Positions 10,427 through 14,948 of a stretch of DNA of 64,000 nt are shown here, one piece after another. The stretch covers positions 1-64,000 of the forward strand of contig NZ_JAHZUY010000012.1 in the NCBI RefSeq assembly GCF_019458025.1, read 5' to 3'. Origin of the DNA: Caldovatus aquaticus (GTDB lineage: Bacteria; Pseudomonadota; Alphaproteobacteria; Acetobacterales; Acetobacteraceae). The notes beneath the pieces were generated by a model, which ran no database searches, was not told the origin of the DNA, and saw only the letters and a program-made list of their open reading frames with translations. How positions within the stretch are numbered: position 1 is the first letter of the stretch; every line of letters begins with the position of its first letter. Made by a program: the position numbers and the translations under genes.

Positions 10427-11272
10427 TCAGCGCGGCGCCGCGGGCGGCGGCGGCAGCGCCTCGCGCTGCACCGCACCGGGCAGGGCCGGCCCGGCGGCGG
10501 CCGGCAGCCCGGCGCCGGGCGGCGCATAGGCCGGCGGCCCGGGCGGAGGCGTCGCCGGCAGGGCCGCGCCCCCGCTGCTGAAGCGCAGCAGCACCCCGCG
10601 CAGCGGGTCGGAACCCGGATTGTGCACGGCCATCTCGATCACGATCTGCCGCGGCGAGACCTCCCGCCCGTAATAGGCCCGGTTCCAGGCGCTGCGCTGG
10701 CTCAGGATCGAGCCCTCCAGCGTCAGCCCCGCATACAGCCCGCGCGCGCGCGCGAAGGCAACGATGTCCGCGCCGATCGCGGTGGTGAGCGCGCCCTCGA
10801 CCCCGACGCCGAGATGCGCGAACGCGACGGAGGCGTCGGCGCCGATCTTGAACTGGCTGTCGAGCAGCGCGTTCAGGCCGCGATCGGTCAGGATGATCAT
10901 CATGATCTGCAGGTCCTGCACGCCGATCTGCAGCCCGGCGCTGACCGAGGCGATGCCGTAGAAGGCCGGCGAGGACCAGGAGCCGGCGCCGTCGCGCGCG
11001 AGCAGCACGCAGTCCCCGCCCTCGCCGCCGAAGAGGAAGCCGGCGCGGAAGACGCGCGGGCAGACCATCACCGCGCGGGCCCGGCGCAGGAGCCGCGCCG
11101 CCTCGCTCGCGCCGTCCCCGAGCATCAGCTCCTGCACCGCGAGGGTGGCCCGGTCCACGACGGCCTGCTGCTCGGCCTGCGCGCGCGCGGCCCGGGGGAC
11201 GCCGAGCAGGAGCAGGAGAAGGGCCAGGATCGCGGCGGTTCCGGGACCGGCCAGGGTCAGCAGACGGCGCAT
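10427..11272 (-). CDS. Secreted SYLF-domain (Ysc84-type) protein
   Basis: The protein has 281 residues: a signal peptide (MRRLLTLAGPGTAAILALL ending at ARAQA), then a SYLF domain with ARAVMVCPRVFRAGFLFGGEGG, SWSSPAFYGIASVSAGLQIG, and DASVAFAHLGVGVEGA, and a Pro-rich C-terminal tail. SYLF domains bind phosphoinositides in eukaryotes; bacterial members are exported proteins of unknown function. A strong GGAGGGAAAGG Shine-Dalgarno places the start at MRRLL, not at the ATG 21 codons earlier. The gene converges on nth and is followed by a copy of the dispersed repeat. Confidence 0.86.
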   Translation of the reverse strand: MRRLLTLAGPGTAAILALLLLLLGVPRAARAQAEQQAVVDRATLAVQELMLGDGASEAARLLRRARAVMVCPRVFRAGFLFGGEGGDCVLLARDGAGSWSSPAFYGIASVSAGLQIGVQDLQIMMIILTDRGLNALLDSQFKIGADASVAFAHLGVGVEGALTTAIGADIVAFARARGLYAGLTLEGSILSQRSAWNRAYYGREVSPRQIVIEMAVHNPGSDPLRGVLLRFSSGGAALPATPPPGPPAYAPPGAGLPAAAGPALPGAVQREALPPPPAAPR

Positions 11273-11375
11273 GAACCTTTCCCTCCAAGCCCTTGATCCG
11301 CTGGCATCATACGGACCGGATCGCGGCGCAGGCAAGGCAAGCTTCGGGCAGGGGCGGGGCGGCCTTTTCGCGCCG

Positions 11376-12035
11376 TCACGCCGCCGGCCGGTCTGGCTCG
11401 GCCGCGGGCAGGGTCCAGGGCTCCTCGTTCACCGCCGCGACGCGCCAGTCGGTGCCGTGCCGCTCGAGCCGCGTCAGCGACAGGTTGCGGATCGAGAAGT
11501 GCAGCGCCTGGTGCGGCGTGAGCCCGATCGCATGCGCGAGCGCGGCGCGGATCGAGCCGCCATGCGCGATCACCACCACGTCCTGGCCCTCGAGCAGGTG
11601 CGCCATGCGCTCGAGCGCGGCGCCGACGCGCGCCAGCACGTCGCGGAAGCTCTCGCCGCCCGGCGGCCGCTCCTCGCCCGAATGCGGCCAGAAGGGGTGC
11701 GGCGGCTCGGTCAGGAGGGCCGGCAGCGCCTCGTGCGGGATGCCCTGCCAGGCGCCGAGATGCTGCTCGGCGAAGTCGGGCTCCTCCTCGAGCGGCTGCT
11801 CCGGATAGCCCGCGGCAAAGATCGCGGCGGCGGTGGCGCGGGTGCGCGAGAGGTGGGTGACGAACCAGCGCGCCGGGTGCGGCAGCCGCGCCGCGAGCCA
11901 GCGGTAGAGCGCCGCCTCCTGCCGCAGCGCGAGGTCGCACAGCGCGACGTCCATCGCCCCGTAGAGCACGGCGCGGGCGGAAGGCTCGACCAGGGCGTGG
12001 CGGACCAGGAAGAAGCGGGTGACGGGAGAGGACAC
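11376..12035 (-). CDS. Histidine phosphatase (phosphoglycerate-mutase-like) family protein
   Basis: This 219-residue cytosolic protein belongs to the branch-1 histidine phosphatases. The nucleophile is His13 in FFLVRHALVEP; the family usually has RHG, here RHA. The second catalytic His is in VVIAHGGSIRAAL, and THLSRTRATAAAI provides the phosphate-pocket Arg. Possible roles include cobalamin (CobC-like) or sugar phosphate dephosphorylation; the sequence alone does not decide. There is no ATG before the motif, so a GTG (MSSPVTRFF) is taken as start; it lacks a strong ribosome binding site. It is divergent from the EAL-like gene across about 208 bases in which I see no other feature. Confidence 0.85.
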   Translation of the reverse strand: MSSPVTRFFLVRHALVEPSARAVLYGAMDVALCDLALRQEAALYRWLAARLPHPARWFVTHLSRTRATAAAIFAAGYPEQPLEEEPDFAEQHLGAWQGIPHEALPALLTEPPHPFWPHSGEERPPGGESFRDVLARVGAALERMAHLLEGQDVVVIAHGGSIRAALAHAIGLTPHQALHFSIRNLSLTRLERHGTDWRVAAVNEEPWTLPAAEPDRPAA

Positions 12036-12243
12036 GGCGGAGATGTAGTCCGCCCGGCTGCCGGGGAAAACGGCGTGGCCGGGAGCGTGCCGCCGGCGCG
12101 GGCGGGAGTGCCCCGGCGCGGCCAGGCCGTCGCGCCCCCTGGCCCGCCGCCATGGCCGCGGCGCGCTGGGCAGTAAGGGTTCGTTCAGCACGCCTCCGCA
12201 CCCTGGGCCGAGCAGTCCGGTCCCTCGCCCGAGCCCAGCGCCG

Positions 12244-13671
12244 ATGCCGCTCCTCGCCGCCGCCGCGCCCACATCGTTCCGTGAGGCCGCCGGCATGGCG
12301 ACGGGCTTCGGGGCGGACACGCCGGAGGCGACGGGGCCGCGGGGGGCCGGGGCAAAGGGGCCGTGGAGAGAGGCGCAGGGGGCAGAGGCGCCGGGGGCAG
12401 AGGGGTCGAGGGCGGAACGGGTGCGAACCGGGGCGCGAGAGGCAACGGGGCCGCAGGCGGGCCACGCGCTGGCAACCCTGGTGCTGCGCCTCTCCGACGC
12501 GCCGCGAGGGGCGCTGCGGGCGGCGCACCGGACCGTGGCGCGCGCGCTGCTGGCGGCGGAGGCGGAGCGGTTCGGCGACGCCGCACCCCGGCTGGCCGAG
12601 ACCGGCGCCGAGGGCGACCCGGTTCTGCTCGGCCTGCCGGAGCGCGAGGCGCGGCGCATCGCCGCGATGCTGGAGGGCGTGTTCGGCCGCGCCCTGGCGC
12701 CGGGTCTGGCCGAGATCCTGCCGGCGGGCGCGGAGGCGCGCGCGCTGCGGCCCTCCGGGCCGGACGCGGCGGGCGCGCCTGGGCTGGACGGCCCGGCGGA
12801 GGCCGCCCTGGCGGAGCTCGACGCCCGCATCGCCGCCCTGCCCCTGGCGCAGTGCGCGCGCCGGGAGCCGCTCCTCCGGCTGCACCCGCGCGAGCGCCCC
12901 GGCCTGGCCGGCCTCCGCCTCGCCCTCGACGCCGCGGCGCTGGCCGCGGCGCTCGGCCCCGCGCTGGCCGGGGATGCCGACCTGCTGGGCCACGCTGCGG
13001 CCGTCCTGGCGCCGCGGCTGCTGCGCGCCCTCGCCGACCCGGCGGCGCGCGCGGAGGTGCTCGGTTCCGCGCCGGACGGTGCGGCCCCGCTGTTCGTCGC
13101 GCTGCCCGCGGAGGCGGCCCGGCAGGCGGCGGCGCTGCTCGGCGCGGCGGCGGCTGCGCCCGGCCTGCCCCGGATGGTGCTGATGGTGCCGCTCGCGGCG
13201 GTCGCCGCGCAGCCCGGCGGGCTGAGTTCGCTGCGGGCGGCGGCGGAGGGCGGCGCCGTGGCGGTCGCGCTCGAGGGGCTTGACGCCGAGGCGCTGGGCC
13301 TGCTCGCGCCGGAGGCGGCCGTCCTCGCCGAGGCCGAGCGGCTGGCCCTGCGCTGGTCGCCGCGCCTCGCCGAGGACCGCGCCGCGGGCGCGGCGCTGCG
13401 CCGGCTCGACCCGGCACGGCTGCTGCTGCTCGGCTGCGACGGGCCGGAGGCGCTGGAATGGGGCGCCGCCCACGGCATCGCCTGCTTTGGCGGGCCGTGG
13501 ATCGGCCTGGCGCTGGCCGCCCTGCGCCGGCTCGCCTGCCCGCACGCCGCGGGATGCGCCCTCGGCGCGTGCGCCGCCCGCGCCGCCGCGACCGAGGCGG
13601 CGGGGCGCGCCGGCTGCGCGAACCGCCCGCTGCTCGCGGCGCTGCTGCCGGACCGGGGTTTCCCCGCGTGA
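12244..13671 (+). CDS. Uncharacterised protein with decayed EAL-like C-terminus (first of pair)
   Basis: 475 residues, very Ala/Leu-rich, cytosolic, without signal or membrane segments. Residues 1-70 are a low-complexity Gly/Ala/Glu tail containing a 15-bp tandem repeat. The C-terminal part (RLLLLGCDGPEALEW, then GAAHGIACFGGPWIG) aligns by eye with the end of EAL phosphodiesterase domains, where the pattern is a Glu-Gly-Val-Glu loop, a helix, and a Gly-x-x-x-x-Gln-Gly-phenylalanine-type strand. None of the acidic metal ligands of an active EAL domain is visible, so no c-di-GMP hydrolysis is expected. The stop overlaps the GTG of a related protein (GTGA), so the two are probably made in equal amounts. 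A second ATG at codon 18 is an alternative start. Confidence 0.7.
   Translation: MPLLAAAAPTSFREAAGMATGFGADTPEATGPRGAGAKGPWREAQGAEAPGAEGSRAERVRTGAREATGPQAGHALATLVLRLSDAPRGALRAAHRTVARALLAAEAERFGDAAPRLAETGAEGDPVLLGLPEREARRIAAMLEGVFGRALAPGLAEILPAGAEARALRPSGPDAAGAPGLDGPAEAALAELDARIAALPLAQCARREPLLRLHPRERPGLAGLRLALDAAALAAALGPALAGDADLLGHAAAVLAPRLLRALADPAARAEVLGSAPDGAAPLFVALPAEAARQAAALLGAAAAAPGLPRMVLMVPLAAVAAQPGGLSSLRAAAEGGAVAVALEGLDAEALGLLAPEAAVLAEAERLALRWSPRLAEDRAAGAALRRLDPARLLLLGCDGPEALEWGAAHGIACFGGPWIGLALAALRRLACPHAAGCALGACAARAAATEAAGRAGCANRPLLAALLPDRGFPA
12373..12402 (+). repeat. 15-bp tandem repeat in a G-rich coding stretch
   Basis: GCGCAGGGGGCAGAG is followed immediately by GCGCCGGGGGCAGAG (one mismatch). 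It encodes an AQGAEAPGAEG segment in the low-complexity N-terminus of the EAL-like protein. The surrounding 12305-12470 region is strongly G-biased on the plus strand, with four G-runs of three or more in 12378-12412, a pattern able to form a G-quadruplex. Confidence 0.7.
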
Positions 13672-14948
13672 TCCTCGCCGCGCACAGACCGGCGGAGGAC
13701 GGCACCGCGCCGGCCGACGCCGGCACGCTGCCGATCCGCGCGGCCGCCGTGCTCGCCGCCGGGGCAGGCGGCGGGCGGAGCGCGGCGGTGGAGCTGGTCG
13801 CCCTGGTGCGCGATGCCGTGGCGGCCGGGGCGGAGCGCCAGGTGCTGCTGCTGCGGCTCCCCGCGCTGCTGCGCGGCGGCGGCCGGGGCGCCCGTCACGC
13901 GGGCCTGCTGCGCGAGGCGCTGGCGCCGCTCCGGCAGCATCCGCGCCTGCGCGTCTTCGACCTGCCGAACGGGGACGTCGCGGCGGTGGGCGGGCCCCGG
14001 GCGCCGCAGCTCGAGGCGGCCCACGGCGCCTTGCGGGCCATGCTGGAGGACGGGCCCGGGCCGGACGGAAGGCCGCCCGCGGCGGTCCGCCTCCATCGCC
14101 TGCCGGAAGAGGCGGCGGCGGTGCTGGCCGCGATCGAGGACGCGCTCGGCCTGACCGCCGCCGCATCGCCCCCCGGCCACGCCGCAGGGGCCGCCCAGGC
14201 GCCGCGGGCGCCGCTCGACGGGGCCGGGCTGGCCGCGGCGGAGCGCGCCCTGGCGATGGCGGACCTCACGCCGTTCCTGCGCCGCCAGGCGGTCTGCCGC
14301 CTGTCCGGCGAGGACGGCGCGGCGCCGGAACCGCTGTGGGAGGAGCGCCGGGTGCCGCTCGCCGAGATCGGCGCGGTGCTGCTGCCCCGCTCCGATCTCG
14401 CCGCCGCGCCGCACCTCGCGCGGCGGCTGCGCCGGGCGCTCGATCGCCGGCTGCTGGCCGAGCTGGCGCGGCCGGAGGAACTGCGCGACCTGCACCCGCT
14501 GCTGCTGCCGCTCGCGCTGGAGAGCGCGACCTCGGCGGAGTTCCTGCGGTTCGACGCCCTGCTGCCGTCCCGCCTGCGGGCCGGGGGCGGCCTCGCCGTG
14601 GCGCTCTCCGCCGAGGACGTGCTGCGCGACCCCGCCGGCTACGCCTTCGCGCGCGACGTCCTGCGCCTGCGCGGGCACAGGGTCGTGCTCGACCTCTCCT
14701 CCCCGGCGCTGGCGCCGCTGCTGCCGATGGCCCGGGTGCGGTTCGACCTGCTGCGGCTCGACGCCCAGGCGGTGCAGGCGGAGGCGGAGCCCGGGGCGAT
14801 GGCGAGGCTGCGCGCGGCGCTGCCCGCCGAGCCGGGCCGCGTGGTGCTGTCCGAGGTCGAGCGTCCCGCCGCGATCGCCTGGGGCTGGGAGATGGGCATC
14901 ACCCTGTTCCAGGGGCGGCTCGTGGAGCGCCGGCGCATCTTCGGCTAG
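13668..14948 (+). CDS. Degenerate EAL-domain-like protein (second of pair)
   Basis: 426 residues starting at a GTG that overlaps the previous stop. The C-terminal half follows the order of an EAL domain: ALESATSAEFLRFDALLP, a strand-helix GHRVVLDLSSPALAPLLPMA where active enzymes carry the DDFG loop, VRFDLLRLDAQAV in place of the KxD strand, VVLSEVERPAAIAWGWEM, and a final GITLFQGRLVE that matches the conserved GI-x-x-FQG end. The EAL motif, the paired aspartates and the catalytic Lys are replaced, so it is probably a non-catalytic binding or scaffold protein. The N-terminal half (VILAAHRPAEDG onward, with VELVALVRDAVAAGAERQ) resembles no domain I can name. It may be a paralogue of the upstream partner. 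Confidence 0.72.
   Translation: MILAAHRPAEDGTAPADAGTLPIRAAAVLAAGAGGGRSAAVELVALVRDAVAAGAERQVLLLRLPALLRGGGRGARHAGLLREALAPLRQHPRLRVFDLPNGDVAAVGGPRAPQLEAAHGALRAMLEDGPGPDGRPPAAVRLHRLPEEAAAVLAAIEDALGLTAAASPPGHAAGAAQAPRAPLDGAGLAAAERALAMADLTPFLRRQAVCRLSGEDGAAPEPLWEERRVPLAEIGAVLLPRSDLAAAPHLARRLRRALDRRLLAELARPEELRDLHPLLLPLALESATSAEFLRFDALLPSRLRAGGGLAVALSAEDVLRDPAGYAFARDVLRLRGHRVVLDLSSPALAPLLPMARVRFDLLRLDAQAVQAEAEPGAMARLRAALPAEPGRVVLSEVERPAAIAWGWEMGITLFQGRLVERRRIFG

Follow-up and report, generated by a model that had tools for sequence, protein, structure and literature searches.

Degenerate GGDEF-EAL paralogues encoded by an overlapping gene pair in Caldovatus aquaticus

The stretch of DNA analysed here, hereafter the window, comprises positions 1 to 64,000 of the forward strand of contig NZ_JAHZUY010000012.1 of Caldovatus aquaticus (GCF_019458025.1). 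Two neighbouring genes, A and B, share a GTGA overlap of stop and start codons (Table 1), and both open reading frames and the overlap lie where the preliminary description had placed them. The start of gene A is uncertain and may be 12244, the equally good ATG at 12295, or a later codon; a structural model built from 12295 had pLDDT below 50 over its first ~36 residues (AlphaFold2). An exact 4-bp overlap, with the start of B in frame, was found in 33 of 42 A-B pairs (window counted), indicating that it is beyond chance. The seven pairs outside the window's own family (f1) do not have it. Long open reading frames in the other frames and on the opposite strand were considered as genes and rejected, as the frames conserved across genomes are those of A and B.

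Table 1. Features of the A-B locus (positions in the window)
Feature	Position	Strand	Description
Gene A	12244..13671	+	Degenerate paralogue of GGDEF-EAL type ending in a four-cysteine tail; 475 aa when read from the ATG at 12244
Probable degenerate GGDEF-like domain of A (N-terminal)	12406..12744 (approximate)	+	AlphaFold2 secondary structure; 5xge aligns with 39-435 (VIA); weak collinear GGDEF profile match
Degenerate EAL domain of A	12787..13518 (approximate)	+	Z 16.0 to PA3825-EAL (VIA); hhalign to EAL
C-x5-C-x4-C-x14-C tail motif of A	13537..13617	+	Cys codons start at 13537, 13555, 13570 and 13615
A/B stop/start overlap, GTGA	13668..13671	+	4-bp overlap in 33/42 pairs (window counted)
Gene B	13668..14948	+	Degenerate GGDEF-EAL protein; 426 aa; GTG start
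Probable degenerate GGDEF-like domain of B (N-terminal)	13755..14162 (approximate)	+	Full-length alignment to LapD, PA0861, PA0575 and MorA tandems
Degenerate EAL domain of B	14205..14939 (approximate)	+	Sub-cut-off Pfam EAL; Z 16-17 (VIA); hhalign

The folds of both proteins were predicted with AlphaFold2 on alignments of relatives, giving a mean pLDDT of 80.9 for A and 85.3 for B. The C-terminal domain of A aligned with PA3825-EAL over 229 residues (Z 16.0, 3.5 Å, VIA), and the corresponding domain of B aligned with the EAL domains of FimX, LapD, RbdA and YkuI with Z of 16-17 (VIA), so that the EAL-like nature proposed earlier was borne out by the predicted structure of each protein. EAL homology was also clear by hhalign (B, prob 93, E 3e-7; A, prob 88, E 3e-6). 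The Pfam EAL family (PF00563) scored 27.0 bits in B (E 3.6e-6), which is under the curated cut-off of 31.3, and 41.5 bits in a relative encoded by a single gene (L066); gene A had no match to any Pfam family. NCBIfam and PADLOC gave no annotation for either protein. When sequence profiles were compared with PDB chains, that of A weakly matched BlrP1 and that of B had no match.

The N-terminal halves had been described as matching nothing known. In the predicted models, however, the strands and helices of both halves follow one another as in GGDEF domains, a resemblance that the first reading of the locus had missed. Whole B aligned with the GGDEF-EAL module of LapD (6pwk) over 327 residues, 1-420 on 227-635, with Z 18.1 (VIA). 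The top Foldseek matches of B were GGDEF-EAL tandems and not lone EAL domains, and B aligned over its full length with the tandems of LapD, PA0861, PA0575 and MorA (317-334 residues) at 16-18 Å rmsd, indicating that the domain orientation differs. In these comparisons the N-terminal domain of B was aligned as part of the whole protein. The match to the GGDEF profile was weak but collinear over 120 columns, with a score of 19.9 versus at most 13.8 for shuffled columns. No GG[DE]EF motif is present in B, where LPNGDVAAV stands at the equivalent place, and Pfam GGDEF gave no match. The full-length tandem alignments of B and the profile score argue moderately for a GGDEF-like fold, and since tandems such as that of LapD can be aligned with B from end to end, the N-terminal halves of A and B are probably degenerate GGDEF domains.

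Active-site residues were tallied over 114 members of the family, with metal sites assigned after PA3825-EAL, in which the M1 metal is held by Glu39, Asn98, Asp130 and Asp160 and the M2 metal by Asp161 and Asp183 (PMC5301497). The M2 aspartate pair was complete in none of the 114 members, and the Arg of E-x-L-x-R, which follows the EAL motif, was likewise present in none. The four M1 ligands and the catalytic Lys were kept together in 22 of 23 proteins encoded by single genes and in 7/7 A and 7/7 B proteins of families other than f1. Within f1 but outside the window clade, the set was kept by 22/29 A and 0/30 B proteins, and in the window clade by 0/8 A and 0/10 B proteins. In the window itself, A carries R, A, M and E at the M1 positions, G at the M2 aspartate beside this E, and A at the catalytic Lys. 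B carries E, P, A and D at the M1 positions, L at the M2 aspartate beside this D, and R in place of the Lys. Neither protein has the full set of an active EAL phosphodiesterase (E, N, E/D, DD, D and the catalytic Lys).

These tallies refine what was first said of the motifs. EAL-type terminal motifs had been noted in both proteins, and GIACFGG of A and GITLFQG of B indeed align with the canonical EAL end 'GCD..QGY', but A does not stop there and runs ~58 residues past its motif. The reported absence of the acidic ligands holds well for A. In B, however, three residues are retained: E in the EAL motif (PLWEER), D at the first position of DDFG (VVLDL), and Q in QG. The proposal that the pair is non-hydrolysing gained strong support, since the M2 aspartate pair is lost in every member and hydrolysis is thus not expected. 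Taken with the lost EAL-motif Arg, this would make hydrolysis of c-di-GMP by A or B very unlikely and its canonical binding by the family doubtful, least likely in the window.

The residue pattern also bears on whether the pair could be a c-di-GMP receptor of the FimX/LapD type, in which one or both EAL domains bind the nucleotide uncleaved and relay the signal. The structures nearest to B include those of FimX and LapD, GGDEF genes occur in all 28 genomes with the family, and the E of the EAL motif is replaced by K or R in 23 of 42 paired B proteins, which resembles the KVL of LapD (PMC3032553). However, the Arg after the EAL motif, R450 in LapD (PMC3032553), is lost in all 114 members. Outside f1 the family is the reverse of LapD, with the metal ligands kept and the Arg lost, and in the window clade erosion of the pocket has gone further still. 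We therefore regard such a receptor as unlikely. Because the whole pocket is eroded in the window clade, a purely protein-protein role would there be at least as likely as a ligand other than c-di-GMP.

A further feature of A, overlooked in the preliminary description, is a tail with four cysteines located C-terminal to its QG-like end. The exact C-x5-C-x4-C-x14-C spacing was found in 37 of 44 A proteins, and four cysteines in 41 of 44, a figure for which the seven proteins without the exact pattern were counted by eye. The motif occurred in none of the 70 B and single proteins. The cysteines form conserved columns in the alignments, and the Arg residues adjoining them are nearly invariant. 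A search with the tail alone gave nothing credible among PDB or Pfam families, and a match to histone H3 (E 0.41) was taken as chance. The tail probably binds Zn or an Fe-S cluster.

B was found in 28 of 60 relatives, including 21 of the 36 genomes of f1, mostly with A directly upstream; the named relatives in f1 belong to the Acetobacteraceae/Rhodospirillales. Across the class Alphaproteobacteria, 52 of 152 genomes (about a third) encode a full-length family member, and the usual state outside f1 is one gene. Pairs also occur in seven families beyond f1 (G037, G056, G078, G082, G085, G104 and G108). Over the 42 A-B pairs examined, a Cys4-bearing A immediately upstream of B recurs in other genomes. 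With EAL folds predicted and the pair conserved together elsewhere, neither of the two refuting conditions named in the preliminary description applied. Family members also occur on Azospirillum plasmid/chromid records, as 'hypothetical protein' where annotated. In a Limobrevibacterium gyesilva record (L092, 5848-7152), an in-frame stop splits B into two ORFs, which may be a sequencing error or real. The literature searched, mostly outside subscription papers, held no description of the A-B pair.

A and B are ancient paralogues, and the GGDEF-EAL family to which they belong is widespread among alphaproteobacteria and predicted to be catalytically dead. In a free tree search, the A proteins fell into two clades. 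When the tail was removed, a single origin of A gave a p-AU of 0.77, and the tree held to it was 20.1 lnL units better than that of the free search. Because the data without the tail are compatible with a single origin, duplication and gain of the Cys4 tail were probably one ancient event.

In f1, HldE and a metallophosphatase are usually encoded divergently upstream of the pair, and B is followed by genes for a DrrA-like ABC ATPase, an ABC-2 permease, a histidine phosphatase and Ysc84. Single members in other families adjoin RegB/RegA, HldE, MmcB, or the DrrA-like ATPase with the ABC-2 permease. The latter two genes (L057, 5129-6684) are conserved downstream of the pair or the single gene across families. 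A MotA/ExbB-like and MotB/OmpA-like pair adjoins members in L161 (4719-7930), L181 (4581-7643) and L176 (3320-6168), which come from plasmid/chromid records of Azospirillum lipoferum and A. oryzae and from G131. Some members adjoin a polysaccharide export gene or a prepilin-peptidase-like gene. In the window, the histidine phosphatase and Ysc84 genes lie on the minus strand at 10430-12060, divergent upstream of the pair, whereas in congeners they lie downstream of the pair and the ABC-2 transporter; this arrangement is a local rearrangement with loss. The ABC permease had no match in the genome of the window (G000), the best match to RegA there was too distant for an orthologue, and HldE lies on another contig. 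The absence of the permease and of a RegA orthologue indicates that those neighbours are not needed for the role of the pair in this genome.

The RegB/RegA redox two-component system adjoins single genes at L066, L104-L107, L113, L116, L119, L123, L124, L165 and L179. Its presence beside singles in many families would fit a sensor of redox state or metal, with the Cys4 tail of A (Fe-S or Zn) receiving the input and the EAL and GGDEF bodies only transmitting it, and it is by this tail that A differs from B and the singles. RegB/RegA, however, stands beside single-gene members and not beside A-B pairs, the genome of the window has no clear RegA orthologue, and the four cysteines may be purely structural zinc ligands. 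We put little weight on this reading.

Co-occurrence with motility and signalling genes was compared among the 60 genomes. FliG was found in 27 of 28 genomes with the family versus 17 of 32 without it (p 1e-4), within f1 in 20/21 versus 9/15 (p 0.013), and with p < 0.05 in each genome-size half, and GGDEF genes in 28/28 versus 22/32, phylogeny and genome size being controlled only in part as confounders in these statistics. The genome of the window has three GGDEF genes and two canonical EAL genes.

We also weighed whether the two genes are relics that in the window clade have lost ligand site and neighbours and are drifting towards pseudogenes. Both pockets are gone in this clade and the ABC permease is gone from the genome of the window. 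A evolves fast, with 60-66% identity within the genus, is interrupted by a stop in one genome (G030), and has lost its tail in two genomes of the clade. On the other hand, open frames with the 4-bp overlap are kept in most pairs, the Cys4 motif is intact in the window, and dN/dS between congeners stays under 1 for A and for B alike (0.39-0.58 by NG86 along the entire genes, and smaller in those YN00 comparisons that converged), an estimate that is rough because of saturation and very high G+C. Decay into relics is thus quite improbable.

The reading that we prefer, put forward tentatively and a little short of being probable, is that of dead GGDEF-EAL paralogues forming a coupled heterodimer, with A as the ligand- or metal-bearing subunit, B as the relay, and an output in motility or the envelope. 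Through translational coupling, A and B would be made together. As they are coupled ancient paralogues, a heterodimer is plausible, and the two most likely work as one. A would supply the M1 site and Lys in most species, together with the four-Cys tail, and B, the pocket-less partner, would pass the signal on by touching a target protein. In the window clade, where both pockets are lost, the pair would have only the Cys4 site and contacts with other proteins to act by. The output would probably be motility or the cell envelope. In favour of this reading we count the co-occurrence with FliG and GGDEF genes and the members found beside MotA/MotB, a polysaccharide export gene, HldE, an ABC-2 transporter or RegB/RegA. 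Against it, flagellar and envelope neighbours differ among subclades, the confounders of the co-occurrence are controlled only in part, the ABC permease and a RegA orthologue are missing from the genome of the window, and the tail or frame of A is lost in a few clade members. A narrower form, in which a pseudo-GGDEF/EAL heterodimer serves as a switch from a Cys4 metal or Fe-S input to motility or the envelope without binding or turning over c-di-GMP, appears rather improbable.

The analysis brings to light a poorly annotated family present in about a third of the sampled Alphaproteobacteria. Within it, one can trace how a signalling enzyme decayed in steps, first at the M2 site, then in the M1 pocket of one partner and then of both, and the gene pair and the Cys4 site persist through the decay. 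With this series, the role of inactive c-di-GMP-enzyme folds without their ligand becomes directly testable.

Among known systems, LapD of Pseudomonas and Vibrio shares with the pair the two-domain order and the lack of catalysis, is the best full-length structural match of B, and shows the same change of the EAL-motif E as many paired B proteins. LapD has lost its metal Glu (KVL) but keeps R450, the residue on which its c-di-GMP site is centred (PMC3032553), whereas the Arg is lost in every member of the A/B family. LapD is also a single HAMP-GGDEF-EAL receptor, in contrast to A and B, which are coupled paralogues with a Cys4 tail on A. FimX, an inactive phosphodiesterase without the DDFGTG metal motif (PMC5301497), resembles the EAL fold of B (Z about 16.5), but it binds c-di-GMP, while the A/B family has lost the Arg and the loop-6 motif. 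The canonical EAL phosphodiesterases PA3825, MorA, MucR and PdeA share the EAL fold, and most A/B relatives keep their four M1 ligands, but all family members have lost the M2 aspartate pair. In E. coli, the degenerate EAL or GGDEF-EAL proteins BluF, RflP and CsrD were tested as interaction partners (PMC5635695), and BluF directly antagonises a repressor (PMC3509220). These three were compared with A and B at the level of fold; they are likewise inactive EAL-type proteins, but unlike A and B are not coupled paralogue pairs. We know of no Cys4 tail in any of them. A and B thus fall within the known degenerate GGDEF-EAL regulators, among which they are marked by the coupling of paralogues, the stepwise loss of metal sites and the Cys4 tail.
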